A stretch of 52,992 bases of DNA from Planctomycetaceae bacterium (GTDB lineage Bacteria; Planctomycetota; Planctomycetia; Planctomycetales; Planctomycetaceae). Shown here one piece after another: positions 14,895-46,815 of the stretch. The notes beneath the pieces were generated by a model. The model was not told where the DNA came from and made no database searches. It was given only the letters and a program-made list of their open reading frames with translations. Numbering within the stretch: position 1 is the stretch's first letter; the number at the start of each line of letters is the position of its first letter. The stretch covers positions 1 through 52,992 of the forward strand of contig WFTL01000040.1 of NCBI GenBank assembly GCA_015485495.1. The letters run 5' to 3'. A program made the position numbers and the translations under genes.

Positions 14895-16022
14895 ATGCCT
14901 GCTTCTCAACCTGATGTCCTTCTTGTCGGCGGTGGAGTCATTGGCCTGACGACCGCTCTGGACCTCGCAGAACACGGTCTTTCCGTGACGGTCATCGATC
15001 GACAGGCCATCGGCCAGGAAGCGTCGTGGGCCGGTGCCGGAATGCTGCCCCCCGGGACGGCTGAAGGAGATCCGGCCGACAATTCCCGCGCAGCCGTGGA
15101 ACGGTTTCTGCGATGCCGCAGCAACAAAGAATGGGGCGCCCTGTCGGAACGACTCCTGGAGAAAACCGGAATCGACAACGGCTTCCGCCAGTGCGGTGCG
15201 GTGGAACTGGGTCTGTCCACGGACCAGCTCCGGGAGCAGACGGCCGTCTGGGATACCGAAGGCGTTCAGTATGAAGTGCTGGAAGACCGGTCAGGTCTGC
15301 AGACGCACGTTCCGGCCCTGGCCGACGAATACCGGCAGGGCGTGTGGCTTCCCGAATTTCGCCAGGTCCGCAATCCCCGGCATCTGAAGGCTCTGCTGAC
15401 GGCCTGCCGGATGTCCGGAGTCGGTATTGTCGAAGGAGCTTCGGACCTGACGCTGCAGTCTGCCGGTCGTCGGGTGCAGGTGACCGCCGACCAGCGTCGT
15501 TTCGATGCCGCCCGGGTCTGTGTGACGGCCGGCTGCTGGAGCGGCCGGCTGCTGAATGGTCTGGGAATCGACCTGCCGGTTCGTCCGGTCCGCGGCCAGG
15601 TCGTTCAACTGCGGGTCGACCGGCTGCCTTTTCGATGTGTTCTGGAACACGGACGACGTTATCTGGTTCCTCGCCCCGATGGCCTCATTCTGGTCGGGTC
15701 CACCGAAGAGGATGCGGGATTCGACCGGCGAACCACCGGCCGGGCTGTTGAAGAGCTGCTGCGATTCGCCATCAGCGTGGTTCCGGAACTGGCGGATGCG
15801 GAACCGGTCCGGCAGTGGGCCGGGCTGCGGCCGGCATCGGCCGACGGCCTGCCGTACGTGGGACAGGTGGAGCATCTGGACAACCTGTTCGTTGCGGCCG
15901 GACATTTTCGTTCCGGGCTGCAGATGTCTCCCGGCACGGCCTCCGTGCTGCGACAGATGATGCTGGAGCAGCCGGAGCCTGCGGTCCGGGCGCTGTTTCC
16001 GCCGCCTGGCCGGGCGATCTGA
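14895..16022 (+). CDS. thiO: Glycine oxidase ThiO
   Basis: 375-aa FAD-dependent amine oxidase of the DAO family. It oxidises glycine to iminoglycine, the precursor for the thiazole ring of thiamine. The Rossmann FAD motif VGGGVIGLTTALDLAEHG is at residues 11-28, EASWAGAGMLPP follows at about 42-53, and the C-terminal substrate/FAD segment AGLRPASADGLPYVG...AAGHFRSGLQMSPGTA is complete. Length is normal. No thiS, thiG or other thiamine genes are adjacent, so the ThiO assignment rests on family resemblance; a related D-amino-acid or sarcosine oxidase is the alternative. It is convergent with the lipoprotein gene, with only 39 bp between them. Confidence 0.88.
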   Translation: MPASQPDVLLVGGGVIGLTTALDLAEHGLSVTVIDRQAIGQEASWAGAGMLPPGTAEGDPADNSRAAVERFLRCRSNKEWGALSERLLEKTGIDNGFRQCGAVELGLSTDQLREQTAVWDTEGVQYEVLEDRSGLQTHVPALADEYRQGVWLPEFRQVRNPRHLKALLTACRMSGVGIVEGASDLTLQSAGRRVQVTADQRRFDAARVCVTAGCWSGRLLNGLGIDLPVRPVRGQVVQLRVDRLPFRCVLEHGRRYLVPRPDGLILVGSTEEDAGFDRRTTGRAVEELLRFAISVVPELADAEPVRQWAGLRPASADGLPYVGQVEHLDNLFVAAGHFRSGLQMSPGTASVLRQMMLEQPEPAVRALFPPPGRAI

Positions 16023-36438: not shown

Positions 36439-37695
36439 ATGACGCATCCGACACGAACGCCCGTCGCTCACCGAGGATCCGACAGAACACGATCGGAAGA
36501 GCGGCGTCTGGTGATTGCCGGAGCAGGCCCCGTGGGTCTGCACGCCGGACTGCGTGCCCTTCAGGATGGTTACGATGTGACCATCCTCGAACAGGGAACC
36601 ATCGCTCAGGCCGTCCGGCAGTGGCAGACGGTCACGCTGTTCACTCCGTTCCACATGAACAGCACCGCTGCCGGTCGCCAGGCGGCTGCCGCCGCAGGTG
36701 CCGACCTGCCGTCTCCGGACTCGCTGCTCATCGGCAGCGACTACATCGATCGCTACCTGCAGCCGCTGGCCGATGGTCCTCTTCTCGCAGACCGCATTCG
36801 CACGCACACACGTCTGGCCGCAGCCGCGCGGTGCGGCTGTGGAAAATCGGATCTTCCCGGTCGTCCGGAACGCGGACGGCTTCCGTTTCGCCTGCTGACC
36901 GAAACGCCGGCCGGCGAAGACGTTCTGGAATGCGATCTGCTTCTGGACTGCACCGGTTTCGTCACGCGACAGCGGCCCATCGGACCGGGCGGCATTCCCT
37001 GTCCCGGAGAACGATCGTGTCTGAAGGCAGAGGATTACCGGATTGCCGAAGTTCCGCGCAGGCCGCCGCGCGGACGGATTCTCGTCGTGGGCAGCGGCTA
37101 TTCCGCGGCCACGTCGGCCTGTCGCCTGCGGGCGGGCGGAGCGGCCGTCACCTGGATCACGCGTCCCGGATCGACTCCCGTTCCCATCGTTCCGGAAGAC
37201 CCGCTGTCCGAACGCAGCCGACTCACCCGGGAAGCCGCCGATCTGGTGTTCCGCGGAGACCCCGATGTCCAGTGGCTGCCCGGTTACGAAATCCACGCGA
37301 TTCGGAAGTCCCATGAAGGATTCCAGGTCACCCTGGCAGGCCCCGGCGAACACACATCGGTGCGGACATTCGAACGGGTCGTGGCCAATGCAGGCAGCCG
37401 ACCGGATGCGGCACCGTTCCAGGAGCTGCAGATTCACCGCTGCTACGCCACCGAAGGCACCATGCCGCTGGCAGCCCGTCTGCTCGGACAGACCACCGGG
37501 GACTGTCTGGCAGTGGAAGCGTCCGGAGCCGATCTGCTGCGTCATCCGGAACCCGGCTTTTTCACACTGGGAGCCGCCAGCTACGGACGCGATTCCCGGT
37601 TTCTGCTGCACCACGGCCTCAGCCAGATCGATTGTCTGTTCGACAGTCTGCAGACGTCCGGTCCATCGGCAGTCGTACAGGATCTGAATGCATGA
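36439..37695 (+). CDS. YpdA-like FAD/NAD(P)-binding oxidoreductase
   Basis: 418-aa soluble flavoprotein. The FAD Rossmann motif VIAGAGPVGLHAGLRAL is at about residues 25-41, LEQGTIAQAVRQWQTVTLFTPFHMNSTAAG follows as in the YpdA/flavin-monooxygenase branch, and the second Rossmann motif for NAD(P)H is ILVVGSGYSAATSACRLRAGG (about 214-234). There is no CxxC redox pair as in thioredoxin reductase. The substrate is unknown; reduction of a disulfide or other small molecule, or oxygenation, are possible. Its stop overlaps the start of the radical SAM gene (ATGA), so it is the first gene of a coupled three-gene operon. Confidence 0.85.
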   Translation: MTHPTRTPVAHRGSDRTRSEERRLVIAGAGPVGLHAGLRALQDGYDVTILEQGTIAQAVRQWQTVTLFTPFHMNSTAAGRQAAAAAGADLPSPDSLLIGSDYIDRYLQPLADGPLLADRIRTHTRLAAAARCGCGKSDLPGRPERGRLPFRLLTETPAGEDVLECDLLLDCTGFVTRQRPIGPGGIPCPGERSCLKAEDYRIAEVPRRPPRGRILVVGSGYSAATSACRLRAGGAAVTWITRPGSTPVPIVPEDPLSERSRLTREAADLVFRGDPDVQWLPGYEIHAIRKSHEGFQVTLAGPGEHTSVRTFERVVANAGSRPDAAPFQELQIHRCYATEGTMPLAARLLGQTTGDCLAVEASGADLLRHPEPGFFTLGAASYGRDSRFLLHHGLSQIDCLFDSLQTSGPSAVVQDLNA

Positions 37696-38609
37696 TGCCG
37701 ACTCCCGAAACATCTCCGCACATCGAACTGCGGTCTCTGGACGAACTGTGGTTTCAGGTCGCCGGAACCGTATGCAATCTGACCTGCCACCACTGTTTCA
37801 TCAGCTGCAGTCCCCGGAATCACAGTTTCGAATTTCTTTCGTACGATCAGGTGGAACGCACTCTTCGGGAATCCCTGGAATATGGTGTCCGTGAGTACTA
37901 CTTCACCGGAGGCGAACCGTTTCTGAACCCGGACCTGACACGGATGCTCATCCGCACACTGGACTTCGGCCCGACGACCGTCCTGACCAACGGAACGGTT
38001 CTTCAGGACGACTGGCTGGACCGGCTGCGTCGGGCCGAACAGAACAGCCGGTACAGTCTGGAATTTCGGGTATCGATCGACGGTCCGTCCCCGGACATCA
38101 ATGACCCGATCCGCGGGAACGGCACGTTCGTTCGGGCCATGCGGGGTGTGTCCCGGCTGTGCAGAGCCGGTTTTCTGCCGATCATCACCATGACTCAGAC
38201 ATGGGACGATCGACAGACCGGCCCGATTCTGAGCCGTTTTCGCGACATTCTGAAACAGCACGGCTGCGACCGACCGAGGCTGAAGATTCTGCCGCGTCTG
38301 AAACTGGGAGCCGAACAGCAGCGGACGGAGGGGTACGGCGTCACCGAACGGGTGACGCCGGACATGATGCGCGGCTTCGACCGGGATCAGCTTCTGTGTC
38401 ATCACAGCCGCATCGTGACCAGTCGCGGCGTGTTCGTCTGTCCGATCCTGATCGAATCGCCGGATGCCCGCATGGGATCCGATCTGTCCGACAGCATGCA
38501 GCCGTTCGAAATGAAACACGGAGCCTGCTGGACGTGCTGGCAGTACGGAACGATCTGCACCAATACCACATGGATGAAATCGCCGACGGTGGAGGCACGC
38601 AGCTCATGA
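37692..38609 (+). CDS. Radical SAM enzyme
   Basis: 305-aa enzyme. Cys28, Cys32 and Cys35 (CNLTCHHC) form the CxxxCxxC site for the [4Fe-4S] cluster that cleaves S-adenosylmethionine, and GGEP (residues 73-76) is the usual SAM-binding strand. A C-terminal Cys group (LLCHHSR, VCPI, ACWTCWQYGTIC) may bind an auxiliary cluster, as in SPASM or twitch proteins. The substrate cannot be told from sequence. ATGA overlaps on both sides tie its synthesis to the flavoprotein upstream and the phosphoesterase-like protein downstream, so the three probably act in one pathway. No precursor peptide was found nearby, which argues against RiPP maturation but does not exclude it. Confidence 0.9.
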   Translation: MMPTPETSPHIELRSLDELWFQVAGTVCNLTCHHCFISCSPRNHSFEFLSYDQVERTLRESLEYGVREYYFTGGEPFLNPDLTRMLIRTLDFGPTTVLTNGTVLQDDWLDRLRRAEQNSRYSLEFRVSIDGPSPDINDPIRGNGTFVRAMRGVSRLCRAGFLPIITMTQTWDDRQTGPILSRFRDILKQHGCDRPRLKILPRLKLGAEQQRTEGYGVTERVTPDMMRGFDRDQLLCHHSRIVTSRGVFVCPILIESPDARMGSDLSDSMQPFEMKHGACWTCWQYGTICTNTTWMKSPTVEARSS

Positions 38610-39418
38610 AGCTGGCTCTGTTCGGTGGAATCTACAGCAACGCCCTGGCCCTGACAGAAGCGATCCGCGATGCCCGGCAGCGTGGAGCCGACGCCATGTA
38701 CTGTCTGGGAGATCTGGGAGCATTCGGTCCGCACCCGGACCGCGTGTTTCCTCTGCTGCACGAACACGACATCGCCTGTGTTCAGGGAAACTACGACGAC
38801 AGCATCGGGAACGAACGCGACGACTGCCAGTGCGGTTATACGGATCCCCGCGACAACCATTTCGCTCAGATCAGTTACGACTACACGCTCGCCCGAACCA
38901 GTGATGCCGGAAAACGGTGGCTCCGACAGCTTCCCCGGGAAATCCGTCTGTCCGTCGACGGGCTTCGGATTCTGCTGTGCCACGGAAGCCCCCGCCGCAC
39001 CAACGAATTCCTCTGGGAATCGACCACGAGTACGGCATTCCTGGAACGCCTGTGCCGCCAGGCGGACACCGACATCATCGCCGGCACGCATTCGGGAATC
39101 CACTGGATGCGGCGTCTTTCCGGCGGACGGTGTTACGTGAACGCCGGTGTGCTGGGACGCCCGGAAAACGACGGAAAAACGAATGTCTGGTACGCGATGC
39201 TGCGAACCGGTCCGGACGCCGACCGAAGCGACCGCATGTCCGGCAGACCGGCCTGGTCCGTCGATTTCGTCCCTGTGTCGTACGATTTTCGTCAACTGGC
39301 CGAACAGATGCGTCAGGAATCGCTGCCGGACGAATTCATCGAAACGATTCTGACCGGCTGGTGGACGACCTGTCTGGAAATCCTGCCGTCCCGCGAACGG
39401 CGGGCCGGACGCTGGTAG
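38606..39418 (+). CDS. Metallophosphoesterase-like protein lacking the first metal motif
   Basis: 270-aa calcineurin-like fold protein. GDLGAFGPHPD (35-45), GNYD (61-64), LCHGSPR (124-130) and AGTHSGIHW (159-167) correspond to the later metal motifs of the YfcE/MJ0936 type. The first motif, normally DxH in a context like SDIHGN, reads GGIYSN (7-12): both metal ligands are replaced. It could bind a single metal, use other residues (it has a Cys pair in CQCGYTD, 74-80) or be catalytically inactive. Its start overlaps the radical SAM gene's stop by ATGA. It is the last gene of the operon and convergent with the BRCT gene after 47 bp. Confidence 0.87.
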   Translation: MKLALFGGIYSNALALTEAIRDARQRGADAMYCLGDLGAFGPHPDRVFPLLHEHDIACVQGNYDDSIGNERDDCQCGYTDPRDNHFAQISYDYTLARTSDAGKRWLRQLPREIRLSVDGLRILLCHGSPRRTNEFLWESTTSTAFLERLCRQADTDIIAGTHSGIHWMRRLSGGRCYVNAGVLGRPENDGKTNVWYAMLRTGPDADRSDRMSGRPAWSVDFVPVSYDFRQLAEQMRQESLPDEFIETILTGWWTTCLEILPSRERRAGRW

Positions 39419-42396: not shown

Positions 42397-45300
42397 TCAT
42401 TTTCGGCACGAATCGGACGCCCGGTCTCTGCTGTTCTGGCTGTCCGTGCTGCCCTGGCCGCAGAAACACTGCATCGCCAGATCTTTGACGGCTTTCAGAT
42501 CGAGTTTTCCCGTACCCAGAACCGGAAGTTCGTCCACCTCACGAAAACTGTCGCGGGAAGGAATCCACAGATTGGGCAGTCCGGATTCCTTCAGTTTCTC
42601 GATCACGCAGGGGATGGGAACCCGGGTCGGCCGGTGCAGTACGACGATGCGTTCCCCTTTGCGGGAATCGGGCACTGCCGTCACGGCACACACGAGGCCC
42701 GGTTCATCATCGTCGTCTTCGTCGAGAATCCGTGTCAGTTCCTGCTCGATGCGGATGTGCGGAACCATCTCGCCGCCGATTTTCGAAAAACGACTCTGCC
42801 GTCCCGTGATTTCGATGAACCCGTCTTCGTCAATGCGGGCAATGTCGCCCGTGTTGTACCAGCCGTCCTGAATGACTTCGGCCGTTTTCTCCGGTTCATC
42901 CAGATACCCCAGCATCACATTGGGGCCTTTGACCTTCAGCAGGCCTTCCTGATTCGGCCCCAGCTGTTCACCGGTTTCAGGATGGAACACCGCCACCATC
43001 GTCCCCGGTGTGGCCCGACCGACCGTGCCGTGTCTGACGCCCTGGCCGCGCGGTCCGCCAGGACTCATGCGGCTGTCGGGAACGTTGAACGACACGACCG
43101 GAGACAGTTCCGTCGTGCCGTATCCTTCAATCGGTTCGTGTCCGAAGCGTTCTTTCCACGCCTGACGCAGTTCGGGAGGCAGTTTTTCGGCACCGGCGAT
43201 CGTCAGATTCAGCGTACGGAACTGCTCCGGTGTACAGCGTTTCAGATACGTGCGCAGAAACGTGGGCGTTGCCGCGATGATCGTCACGCCGTGCTTTTCG
43301 GCCAGTTCTCCCACCACACGCGCCTCCAGCGGGTTGTAGTGGTACGTGCCTGCCGGATCGGCACACAGCACCAGCCACAGCGTGACAGTGAATCCGAAGG
43401 AATGAAAAAACGGCAGGACTCCCAGAATCGTGTCCTCTTCCGTGAGATTGAAAATGCTGGTGACGGCATCCAGATTGGACACGATGTTGTTGTGAGACAG
43501 CATCACGCCTTTGGGTTCGCCGGTGGAACCCGATGTGAACACGATGGTCATCACATCATCCGGGCAGATGCGGTTCAGTTTCAGCCGCCGCACCAGCAGC
43601 CCCATGGGCATCAGCCGCGCTGTCAGCAGAGCACGGATGCGGTCGACCGTGGAAATCCGTTCCTTCAGGTCTTCCACGAACAGAATCTCCGCATCCAGCC
43701 GATACGGACGCTGTTCCAGAAAACGGCGGCTGGTCAGCACCTGTTTCACACCGGCTTTGCGAATGCAGAAATTCATCACGTCTTCTGACAGCGTGTAATT
43801 CAGATTCACGGTCACCCGCCCGGCCAGACTGAGGGCCGCATTGACCAGCGTGGCTCCGACCGATGGCGGCAGCAGAATGCCCACATGGTCGGCATCGGGT
43901 TTCAGAATGTCGCGCGTCAGCAGACGGTGAAATGCCAGAGCACCTGTCAGCAGACGTCCGCCGGTCAGTTCCGTCCCGCCGGAGTCGGAGCATTTCGTCC
44001 GCCCCCAGGCGCGTCGCGACTGCCGGATGAATCGAGCGGCCGGAATCATTCTGCGCTCCTTTCTGCGTTCGAAGGATGCCGCGCTGAGTTCCAGAACGGC
44101 CTGACGCACAACGTGCACGTCGTCCACACGGGAAATCGGTTTGCCAAAGCTGATCGAAACGGGATACGGGCGGAATCGGCGACTGCTGCGCCCTGTGTGG
44201 GTTCCGCCCGAACGAAAGACGCTTCCCCACAGTTCATCGAAATACACGGGAATCACCGGAGCGTCCGTGCCCCGAAGCACTTTCAGAATGCTGCGTTCGA
44301 ACTTCAGAAGCTGACCGGCAGGAGCCTTCTGCTGTTCGGCAAAGATACACACCAGTTCATCATTTCGCAGCGCTTCCTGAGCGGTCTTCAGAGACTTCAG
44401 GACAGACCGGGGACCGTCCTCCGGGCGCACGGGGATGATCCCGAACAGTTTCGCCAGCCGACCGATCACCGGACCTTCCACATGATCCGCCCAGACGATC
44501 ATGCGAATCGGCCGTGACCCGGACAGCAGAATGAGAATGCCGTCGATCCAGCCGACCTGATTCGACACCAGCAGAGCCGGTCCCCGTTCCGGAATGTTCT
44601 CGACTCCGTACGTCCGCACCCGGTACACCGTCCGACTGATCAGCCAGGCCACGAACCGCACCGTGGCCTGCGGAATCAGACAGCAGATGTAAACGAAAAT
44701 CGGCAGGGTGAACACCGCCGCAAGCAGGAACACCTCACTGGGAGCCAGATGCAGCCGCGTGCGCAAAAACGGAAACAGAATCGCCACCAGAACCATGCCG
44801 ATGGCAATGAGCTGATTGCCGGCCGCCAGAATGCTGCCCAGCGTCCCCGGCGGACTGCGTTCCTGAATGAAGGCATTCAGCGGCACATTGAACAGCCCGC
44901 CCCCCACGCCGATCAGCACCAGAGCCGCCGCGAACAGAACCTGCGAACTGCTGCTGAAATACGCCAGAACGCTGGCCGCGATCATCGTCAGAGTCCCCAA
45001 AGGAACCATGCCCAGTTCCACATGACGGCCCGACCACCAGCCGGCCAGTACGCTGCCCAGCCCCACGCCGACCGACAGGGCAGCCAGAAACGGACCGACC
45101 TGAAGCTGCTCCATCGACAGTTCGTGGATCACGAACGCGTCGATGTTCACCTGAGACAGCGATGCCAGAGACCAGAAGAACACGATTCCGAACGTCACGC
45201 GCCGAATCGCCCGGTTGCGGAACACCAGCTTCAGATCGCGCAGCGAATACCGAATCACATTCGCGGGAAACACGGCCTGCGGCGTGCTCGCCGGCACCCG

Positions 45301-45948
45301 TTCCATCGGAAACGATGCCAGCAGACCGGTCACCGCCACCCCCAGCAGAGCAGCCGCCGATATCCAGATGGATGTCGTGCCGTCCGGAGCCGTCAGACTG
45401 TACAGTCGGTTGCCGGCCACGGTTCCGGTGATGACGCCGATCAGCATGATCAGCCCCGCCAGCCCGTTCGCTGCCGACAGATGCTGGCGCGACACGAGTT
45501 CCGGAATCATGCCGAATTTCGTCGTGGTCAGCAGGGCACTTTGCGTCCCCATCAGAAACAGCACCAGAAACATGGCCGGCAGAACACCCAGAAGGATGGC
45601 GACGATTCCCAGAGCCAGAATGATGATTTCGGCCACCTTCAGTCCGATGGTGACACGCCGCTTGCTGAATCGCTCCGCCAGCCACCCGGCCCACGGCGAA
45701 AACACGATGAACGGCAAAATGAAACAGCCCAGCCCCAGCCCCATCATGAGCGATTCACGGCCCGGGATATCATCCGCCGGCAGGCCGCGGGTCGCCCGAA
45801 ACTTGGCAATCGGCACCATGTACCAGCGAAACATGCTGTCGTTGATCACGGTCATCAGATTCATCAGCAGATAACTGACGAACGAGACCGACCAGAGACC
45901 TCCAGCGCACGACGAGGGTGAATCACCGGATGAAGTCCTGTCAGACAT
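42397..45948 (-). CDS. LplT - acyltransferase - acyl-ACP synthetase fusion (Aas-like)
   Basis: 1183-aa membrane protein joining three parts that in E. coli are LplT and Aas: an MFS lysophospholipid flippase (residues about 20-425, twelve helices), a PlsC-like acyltransferase domain (about 445-630) and an AMP-forming acyl-ACP/CoA synthetase (about 660-1160; ATP motif TSGSTGEPKG at 805-814, then YGTTELSP and GWYNTGDIA). Together they take up and re-acylate lysophospholipids. The acyltransferase part lacks its key residues: the NHxxxxD motif reads SNQVGWID (Gln464 for His) and the FxEG motif reads FAEQQ (about 537-541). Start at 45948 gives the normal LplT N-terminus; the frame is open upstream. 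Three phased CGTGAC sites precede it. Confidence 0.93.
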   Translation of the reverse strand: MSDRTSSGDSPSSCAGGLWSVSFVSYLLMNLMTVINDSMFRWYMVPIAKFRATRGLPADDIPGRESLMMGLGLGCFILPFIVFSPWAGWLAERFSKRRVTIGLKVAEIIILALGIVAILLGVLPAMFLVLFLMGTQSALLTTTKFGMIPELVSRQHLSAANGLAGLIMLIGVITGTVAGNRLYSLTAPDGTTSIWISAAALLGVAVTGLLASFPMERVPASTPQAVFPANVIRYSLRDLKLVFRNRAIRRVTFGIVFFWSLASLSQVNIDAFVIHELSMEQLQVGPFLAALSVGVGLGSVLAGWWSGRHVELGMVPLGTLTMIAASVLAYFSSSSQVLFAAALVLIGVGGGLFNVPLNAFIQERSPPGTLGSILAAGNQLIAIGMVLVAILFPFLRTRLHLAPSEVFLLAAVFTLPIFVYICCLIPQATVRFVAWLISRTVYRVRTYGVENIPERGPALLVSNQVGWIDGILILLSGSRPIRMIVWADHVEGPVIGRLAKLFGIIPVRPEDGPRSVLKSLKTAQEALRNDELVCIFAEQQKAPAGQLLKFERSILKVLRGTDAPVIPVYFDELWGSVFRSGGTHTGRSSRRFRPYPVSISFGKPISRVDDVHVVRQAVLELSAASFERRKERRMIPAARFIRQSRRAWGRTKCSDSGGTELTGGRLLTGALAFHRLLTRDILKPDADHVGILLPPSVGATLVNAALSLAGRVTVNLNYTLSEDVMNFCIRKAGVKQVLTSRRFLEQRPYRLDAEILFVEDLKERISTVDRIRALLTARLMPMGLLVRRLKLNRICPDDVMTIVFTSGSTGEPKGVMLSHNNIVSNLDAVTSIFNLTEEDTILGVLPFFHSFGFTVTLWLVLCADPAGTYHYNPLEARVVGELAEKHGVTIIAATPTFLRTYLKRCTPEQFRTLNLTIAGAEKLPPELRQAWKERFGHEPIEGYGTTELSPVVSFNVPDSRMSPGGPRGQGVRHGTVGRATPGTMVAVFHPETGEQLGPNQEGLLKVKGPNVMLGYLDEPEKTAEVIQDGWYNTGDIARIDEDGFIEITGRQSRFSKIGGEMVPHIRIEQELTRILDEDDDDEPGLVCAVTAVPDSRKGERIVVLHRPTRVPIPCVIEKLKESGLPNLWIPSRDSFREVDELPVLGTGKLDLKAVKDLAMQCFCGQGSTDSQNSRDRASDSCRK

Positions 45949-46815
45949 ACAGATTTCGCAGAAAAAACGGGAGATTCGCGTCCGTCGCCGGCCCGAATCA
46001 GAATGGACCTGCTCCATCTGTGCAACCAGTGATTTTCTCCGTGACCCAAAACATGCCGTTTCGTGACACTCCTTTGACGAAATCGGCCTGTTTCGTGACA
46101 CAACAGAAACACACGCGCTGAACGACCTGCCGCGATCGAGCCAAACGATTCGGCCGCCATCCCGCGTCCACTGAAACCGACAGCCGCTGCAGAGAACCCC
46201 CGCCCCGATACGGGACCACATTTTTCAACCCGGCGCTCATAAATCCTCGAAGAGTCCAAATGAACAGTTTGCCTCGATCTGTCGTTGTGCTTCTGTCTGT
46301 TGTGGGAAGCACCTGTGTCGTGAACGGGATTGCCCTGGAGGGAGGGTGCGGTGAACAATCCTGTTCATGCTGACCACGGACGGCGCGGTGGCGAGCATGA
46401 CAGAACCATCGAACACTGTGGTCGCGCGGTGAACGACAGCCCGCCGGCCGGAACCAGGACCAGCGGTGCGGGACAGCGCAGGGCAGCGGAGCGGCGCCAG
46501 CCGTCCGGTTGTTATGCGGGCGAGTGTACTCACCGGAGGCCTTTCGGCCTTCCGCTGTGATTTCTGGTCGCATCGGGAAACTCGGCAGGCCGGAACCGGG
46601 AACGGAGCGACGCCGATACGGCAGTCCGGTACCGTCGCGTGCACACTTGACCGAAAACAGCGGTCGTTGTACGGAAAAGTGTTCGCTGGTCGGATGCACC
46701 GGACGCGGGCATTCCATGCTGTGGACGGAATATGCCGGGCCGGGCTCCAGGCGGGTGCCTTTCCGGAGGCATGCGTGCGCGTGGACAAAGCAGGTTGTAT
46801 GGAAAGCGGTGTCTC
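45949..46815. other. 867-bp gene-free divergent region
   Basis: This is the longest stretch without a gene in the window. No frame has a signal peptide, domain or binding site. It contains three CGTGAC sites (46040-46101), a hairpin around 46531-46552 (GGAGGCC/GGCCTTCC with no T-tract) and many short GC-rich inverted repeats from 46430 onward. It could hide an unannotated structured RNA, but I matched none of the common ones (RNase P RNA, tmRNA, SRP RNA, 6S). Confidence 0.45.
46040..46101. promoter_or_regulatory. Three phased CGTGAC repeats upstream of the Aas-like gene
   Basis: Two exact 12-bp copies of GTTTCGTGACAC lie at 46058-46069 and 46090-46101, 32 bp apart. A weaker copy with core CGTGAC at 46040-46045 lies 22 bp before the first core. 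These distances are about two and three helical turns, so the sites would face the same side of the DNA. They are 92-153 bp upstream of the fusion gene's start. They could be an operator; the binding protein is unknown. Confidence 0.5.

Follow-up and report, generated by a model that had tools for sequence, protein, structure and literature searches.

The 52,992-nucleotide contig WFTL01000040.1 of a Planctomycetaceae bacterium (the window, meaning this whole stretch) carries three adjoining genes, designated g1, g2 and g3, which encode a flavoprotein, a radical S-adenosylmethionine (SAM) enzyme and an altered metallophosphoesterase, respectively. The trio is a real conserved unit and a discrete cassette, and relatives of each of its members lie in arsenic gene clusters. 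Three families tied to arsenic via their relatives form one conserved cassette, itself with no ars neighbour. An arsenic biotransformation module is the simplest account; judging from sequence comparison, we lean towards this reading with modest confidence. A more specific version, which we put forward only tentatively, holds that the trio may constitute a new ArsM-independent organoarsenical pathway, in which a distinct radical SAM family forms carbon-arsenic (C-As) bonds and a metallophosphoesterase with half of its metal site lost acts as a thiol enzyme or as an arsenic carrier, the whole replacing arsenite efflux in a large planctomycete group. The trio is probably undescribed so far: of the two topics searched in the literature, radical SAM enzymes with metallophosphoesterases in Planctomycetes returned nothing, and the combination with arsenic returned only work on iron in Bacteroidetes, as judged by titles and abstracts.

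Conservation of the trio among planctomycetes

A scan of one genome per species yielded 281 relatives of g2, from which the best 80 loci, nearly all planctomycete, were kept; the contigs of some of these end too early for the completeness of the trio to be judged. On the same strand, g1 lies 5' of g2 in 57 of the 80 loci (54 of these at most 120 bp away) and g3 lies 3' of g2 in 60 (50 of these at most 120 bp away), with one further g3 on the opposite strand. The complete trio is present in 43 loci. The gap is exactly -4 in 22/57 g1-g2 pairs and in 12/60 g2-g3 pairs. In the window, the three plus-strand genes lie where the initial annotation had placed them, with an ATGA overlap at each of the two junctions (Table 1); all three reading frames are open, and the word ATGA occurs 31 times versus 30.2 expected, i.e., without excess.

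An even sample of the phylum comprised 294 genomes, and in these, strong matches to g1 and g2 (below 1e-120) and to g3 (below 1e-100) coincide in an identical set of 14, which spans seven families with ten genera. Three of these genomes, all from one genus, have g1 far from g2-g3. At 1e-20, 33 of the 294 genomes match g3; the 19 outside the set match no better than 1e-45 and were treated as carrying other metallophosphoesterases. Three of these proteins were inspected: those of loci L106 and L108 have the canonical DxH motif, and that of L103 (genome G187) is without it. The L108 protein was dropped, and the g1 of L032, whose coordinates were mis-set, was left out of set A3. The sample and the locus genomes partly overlap (the L010 genome and G194 have identical coordinates, and L012 is like a region of G266), which leaves the phylum survey and the whole-genome searches described next not fully independent, and the Fisher tests reported below ignore kinship, the genomes not being independent.

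For 22 of the 37 incomplete loci, the whole genome was searched for the missing members. Wherever g3 was absent from the locus, it was found elsewhere in the genome (11/11), and it is thus present in all 22 genomes; an absent g1 was recovered in 12 of 15 cases and is present in 19 of the 22. An example is the cultured planctomycete Thalassoglobus neptunius, where locus L010 contains g2 and g3 and g1 lies at another site of the genome. The link between the three genes is therefore more than one of location. These observations bear out the earlier proposal of a single uncharacterised pathway, as the trio co-occurs across the phylum even where it is unlinked. That proposal was to fall if the homologues never co-occurred beyond close relatives or belonged to separate known pathways; the opposite was found, the trio being common to many planctomycetes at 32-74% identity per gene, with the relatives of all three genes indicating arsenic.

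Table 1. Positions of the trio, its motifs and thiO in the window
Feature	Position	Strand	Remarks
Glycine oxidase ThiO	14895-16022	same as trio	over curated ThiO cut-off; ~20 kb upstream of trio
g1, FAD/NAD(P)-dependent oxidoreductase, 418 aa	36439..37695	+	Pfam Pyr_redox_3 (1.5e-12)
g1/g2 ATGA overlap	37692..37695	+	
g2, radical SAM enzyme, 305 aa	37692..38609	+	Pfam Radical_SAM PF04055 (1.3e-21)
CNLTCHHC, the Cx3Cx2C radical SAM cluster motif of g2 (residues 28-35)	37773..37796	+	three Cys invariant in 26/26
g2 C-terminal Cys region, SPASM/twitch-like (C236, C250, C279-x2-C282-x6-C289)	38397..38558	+	from alignments
g2/g3 ATGA overlap	38606..38609	+	
g3, metallophosphoesterase-fold protein, 270 aa, GGIY replacing DxH and THSG replacing GHTH	38606..39418	+	Pfam Metallophos_2 (9.4e-11)
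g3 CxC (Cys74, Cys76), numbered as Car1 Cys74/Cys76	38825..38833	+	60/60 long-enough orthologues

Relatives of the three proteins

Among the NCBIfam matches listed (the best 25 for g1 and g2), no family exceeds its cut-off for any of the three proteins. The Cx3Cx2C motif and the core domain place g2 in the radical SAM superfamily. The extra C-terminal cysteine group described in the initial annotation is real: five residues (C236, C250, C279, C282 and C289) are invariant in 26 aligned sequences and recur in all eight members of a second alignment comprising g2, one orthologue and six distant relatives. Set against the SPASM/twitch pattern, g2 has C-x9-G-x3-C and C-x2-C-x6-C and is without the last SPASM cysteine.

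Distant g2 relatives were collected from 16 non-trio genomes (1e-30 or better), and their proximity to ArsM was compared by hand. In 11 of the 16 (G195, G088, G267, G275, G106, G228, G116, G020, G046, G107 and G001), the relative lies in the same open frame as an ArsM match or at most 0.5 kb from it; the five without a nearby ArsM are G076, G017, G023, G065 and G102. ArsM-fused radical SAM proteins of planctomycete family f44 have the C-terminal cysteines and the CNLxC motif in common with g2. In G195 (L165:7643-9478) and four genomes related to it (G088, G267, G275 and G106), a g2-like radical SAM part and an ArsM-like methyltransferase occupy one frame of approx. 610-630 codons, and longer frames, of 871 and 1372 codons, each with a g2-like and an ArsM-like match, occur in L176 (G228:C3) and G116:C35. 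TIGR04283 adjoins the g2 relative in G195, where this glycosyltransferase follows the fusion frame, and in G046, which also has TIGR04282.

According to PMC12159101 and PMC8552651, radical SAM enzymes form C-As bonds in the synthesis of arsenosugars and arsinothricin. ArsS (TIGR04167) shares the radical SAM core with g2 at weak similarity, and g2 scores 44.1 bits against its cut-off of 300. ArsL, described in PMC8552651 as a radical SAM enzyme that needs no preceding methylation step to form a C-As bond from As(III), offers a functional model for g2. It differs, however, in having 428 amino acids, its motif at residues 194-201 and only three conserved cysteines, whereas g2 has 305 amino acids, its motif at 28-35 and at least five more invariant cysteines; by these features, g2 is not an ArsL. 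The best curated match of g2 is the Rv1681 family radical SAM protein (NF049973), at 110.8 bits far under the cut-off of 380.

The AlphaFold model of g3 (predicted local distance difference test score, pLDDT, 87) has the Ap4A hydrolase SapH as its nearest solved structure, with a template modelling (TM) score of 0.75. The metal motif DxH is changed to GxY in 61/61 orthologues, one of which is a fragment; in the 60 long enough, GNY stands in place of GNH and Gly in place of the second His of GHxH, while D36, N62, H126, H162 and the CxC (C74, C76) are all retained. GWWTTCLE marks a conserved C-terminal part. We take these changes, by the usual assignment, to remove one of two metal sites and to keep the other. 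As judged by its motifs, g3 is not an ordinary phosphoesterase.

According to PMC12124457 (2025), arsM operons contain a metallophosphoesterase gene whose product is approx. 40% identical to Car1. In this arsenate reductase, which comes from Rufibacter tibetensis, Cys74 and Cys76 are reported to be essential; a title cited in the same paper describes Car1 as a metallophosphoesterase evolved for redox catalysis. The fold and the CxC at 74/76 are the same in g3. Car1 itself was compared by its published residue numbers, and the 29-34% identity found for g3 refers to Car1-like CxC metallophosphoesterases of ars operons, of which three come from Hymenobacteraceae, to which Rufibacter also belongs. 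What sets g3 apart from these proteins is the absence of DxH and of the second GHxH histidine, and the presence of the GWWTTCLE part; it stands with a radical SAM gene, whereas they stand with ArsR, ACR3 and ArsC.

Plasmid relatives of g3 numbered 104 records, of which 14 were inspected, chosen best-first and then by genus spread rather than at random. Eight of the 14 are near arsenic-named genes, and seven of these eight have the CxC, the Flammeovirga protein being without it. For another five, the stretch inspected contains no arsenic-named gene; the CxC is absent from four of them and present in that of Picosynechococcus. A Roseomonas relative with CxC lies beside a g2 relative and a TIGR04282 'arsenosugar' glycosyltransferase. 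The tree places g3 together with two proteins, those of Roseomonas and G187 (99/98; long-branch warning), and like g3 both have lost DxH and the second GHxH histidine. The G187 protein has arsenic genes as its neighbours: its row (L170:4882-9203) comprises ArsR, an aquaporin, an ArsC match, ArsM, the DxH-less CxC metallophosphoesterase and then a hemerythrin-domain protein.

Three plasmid arrangements were noted in passing. A Roseomonas haemaphysalidis plasmid (L218) carries TIGR04282, DUF547, two radical SAM genes, a phosphonate-type ABC transporter and a DxH-less CxC metallophosphoesterase, possibly an organoarsenical or arsenic-uptake cluster outside planctomycetes. On Mucilaginibacter and Pedobacter plasmids (L212, L213), tandem metallophosphoesterases lie 3' of ACR3, the first with CxC and the second without, and it is possible that they form a reductase/partner pair. 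On the Picosynechococcus plasmid (L234), a CxC metallophosphoesterase is followed by a second metallophosphatase, with a gene for a FAD/NAD(P)-binding protein near and no annotated arsenic gene.

The flavoprotein g1 can be aligned over nearly its full length with flavin adenine dinucleotide (FAD)/NAD(P) oxidoreductases of ars operons (the HPEPGFFTLGAASYGR region). These ArsO-/ArsV-like proteins are 29-33% identical to g1 over most of its length and share with it the HPE...G.KSYGR region and a conserved cysteine; their Cys-containing tail is missing from g1. Against ArsO (NF040505), g1 reaches 19.2 bits, with a cut-off of 425, and five scanned ars-operon relatives likewise reach only 44-65 bits; as they are far below the cut-off, these relatives are named here only as ars-operon FAD oxidoreductases. 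The initial label of g1 was a YpdA-like FAD/NAD(P) oxidoreductase; the match to YpdA bacillithiol disulfide reductase (TIGR04018) covers the FAD motif only, at 34.8 bits against a cut-off of 339.9. Ten of 20 listed plasmid relatives (out of 121 records; chosen, again not at random, best-first and then by genus spread) were inspected. Seven are near arsenic-named genes, two are near an ArsR/SmtB regulator only, and the tenth, from Roseomonas mucosa, is near neither an arsenic-named gene nor an ArsR-type regulator. The flavoprotein ArsV oxidises organoarsenicals, according to PMC11719878 and PMC10080717.

An arsenic module and its alternatives

Were the trio an arsenic module, g3, as a thiol (CxC) protein like Car1, might reduce arsenate that enters the cell with phosphate, or it might bind arsenic. 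The g2 enzyme would act next and form a C-As bond via a radical SAM fragment, as ArsS does with 5'-deoxyadenosyl and ArsL with 3-amino-3-carboxypropyl, and the product's oxidation state would be set by g1 with the help of NAD(P)H and FAD. This would yield an organoarsenical of lower toxicity, independently of ArsM in at least some trio genomes, in hosts that mostly lack the arsenite pumps ACR3 and ArsB. The order of the steps and the identity of the product are guesses. If such a pathway exists, it would be a third radical SAM route to C-As bonds, besides those of ArsS and ArsL, and it would operate in planctomycetes, for which some trio-locus records name marine samples. It would also exemplify the shift of a fold from hydrolysis to thiol chemistry, with the steps readable in living relatives of g3: canonical motifs first, then the addition of CxC, then the loss of half of the metal site. 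With its small size, the trio would be amenable to a single laboratory experiment.

Several observations weigh against an arsenic function. Thirteen ars queries (ArsM, ACR3, ArsC, ArsR, ArsH, ArsA, ArsJ) at 1e-5 detected no ars gene in the window or in the 80 trio loci (1.27 Mb), where the sole match was one weak methyltransferase in L041; the same queries gave 42 matching lines in seven control loci. The trio thus differs from an ars operon in having no ArsR, efflux, ArsC or ArsM gene beside it. The earlier remark that no known pathway genes adjoin the trio is right for this genome, and the suggested look for arsenic genes among conserved neighbours succeeded in part, finding them beside distant relatives and none beside the trio itself. 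The window's genome (98% complete) contains no ArsM at 1e-40, no ArsB at 1e-20 and no ACR3 over the cut-off, with one 30-bit match. In the phylum sample, ArsM does not track the trio (8/14 trio genomes vs 122/280 others, p 0.41), and ArsM as a required partner is not supported. The arsenic links of g1 and g3 rest on 29-33% identity, and g3 may not act as Car1 does, because it has lost DxH and the second His of GHxH, both of which the DxH-type ars-operon relatives keep. The CxC does not track arsenic neighbours strictly, as the Flammeovirga and Picosynechococcus proteins described above show. Finally, the trio members can occur apart: within the sample, g2 is without partners in G076 (2.7e-119), g1 is without g2 and g3 in G205 (1.1e-115) and G203 (8.3e-87), and three of the 22 tested genomes with incomplete loci are without g1.

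The arsenic link could be one of ancestry and not of present function. On this alternative, which we judge rather unlikely, the families come from arsenic operons and the trio now serves another small molecule (e.g., a compound of selenium, antimony or phosphorus, or a cofactor), with g3 a thiol- or metal-binding protein and no arsenate reductase. The missing ars neighbours, the undetected ArsM, ACR3 and ArsB of the window's genome, the occurrence of the trio irrespective of ArsM, and motif changes in 61/61 g3 orthologues, unlike the DxH-keeping Car1-like proteins, all agree with it. Against it stands the G187 relative of g3, which has the same motif losses and is preceded by genes for ArsR and an aquaporin, an ArsC match and ArsM, and which groups with g3 and the Roseomonas protein, subject to the long-branch warning; moreover, the relatives of all three families indicate one element, arsenic. 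The distribution of efflux pumps fits either case. ACR3 is rarer with the trio (1/14 vs 116/280 genomes, p 0.010, kinship ignored), and ArsB is found in 0/14 trio genomes at 1e-20; these low counts fit a stand-in for efflux and equally fit a trio unrelated to arsenic.

Two further readings are unlikely. The initial annotation had the trio modify a phosphorylated small molecule, with g3 presumably its phosphatase, and the metallophosphoesterase fold, the proximity to SapH and the retained half of the metal site (D36, N62, H126, H162) speak for it. Such a pathway appears improbable in view of the loss of DxH throughout, together with the GNY and GHxH changes, and g3 rather resembles a metallophosphoesterase turned arsenate reductase. 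Still less probable is the maturation of a ribosomally synthesised and post-translationally modified peptide (RiPP), in which g2, as a maturase of the SPASM type, would modify a short peptide. The SPASM/twitch-like C-terminal cysteines would suit that role, and BlsE is among the best matches of the g2 model, as are the peptide maturases SkfB and SuiB, at modest TM scores (0.56-0.62, normalised by query). However, no peptide gene was recognised among the 15 largest short-open-reading-frame families common to at least five loci, in keeping with the earlier remark on precursor peptides; by strand and position, these families look like shadows of long genes, thiO and dtd among them. Moreover, the Pfam scan contains no RiPP domain, and distant g2 relatives are fused to ArsM.

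Flanking genes

Of the 43 complete loci, 19 have the trio flanked by thiO on one side and dtd on the other. Twelve thiO loci from nine genomes without the full trio show the two flanks in its absence: in 11 loci of eight trio-negative genomes thiO directly adjoins dtd, and the remaining locus, L177 of G205, has thiO and g1 and no dtd match. Across the 80 g2 loci, thiO occurs in 34, mostly immediately 5' of g1. Within the window's family, thiO is present in each of the 17 genomes sampled, six with the trio and 11 without it, and we therefore treat thiO as a flank and not as functional evidence. A thiamine-related cluster, which the frequent position of thiO next to g1 and the curated score of the window's own thiO might suggest, is the least credible reading, given thiO in the 11 trio-negative family genomes, the thiO-dtd adjacency in 11 trio-negative loci and the 20 kb that separate thiO from the trio in the window.

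Other candidate partners were also considered. As thiO and dtd adjoin each other without the trio and thiO is also found in trio-negative genomes, both were rejected as pathway partners. A TIGR04282-like cluster (12 loci; one member scanned) was rejected likewise, since it mostly adjoins thiO and may follow it. Local synteny may account for two other neighbours, prolyl oligopeptidase (7 loci) and ApbE (6 loci). Downstream of the trio, positions 42397-46221 of the window hold a very long open frame that, by eye, resembles a permease, an acyltransferase and an AMP-ligase joined together.

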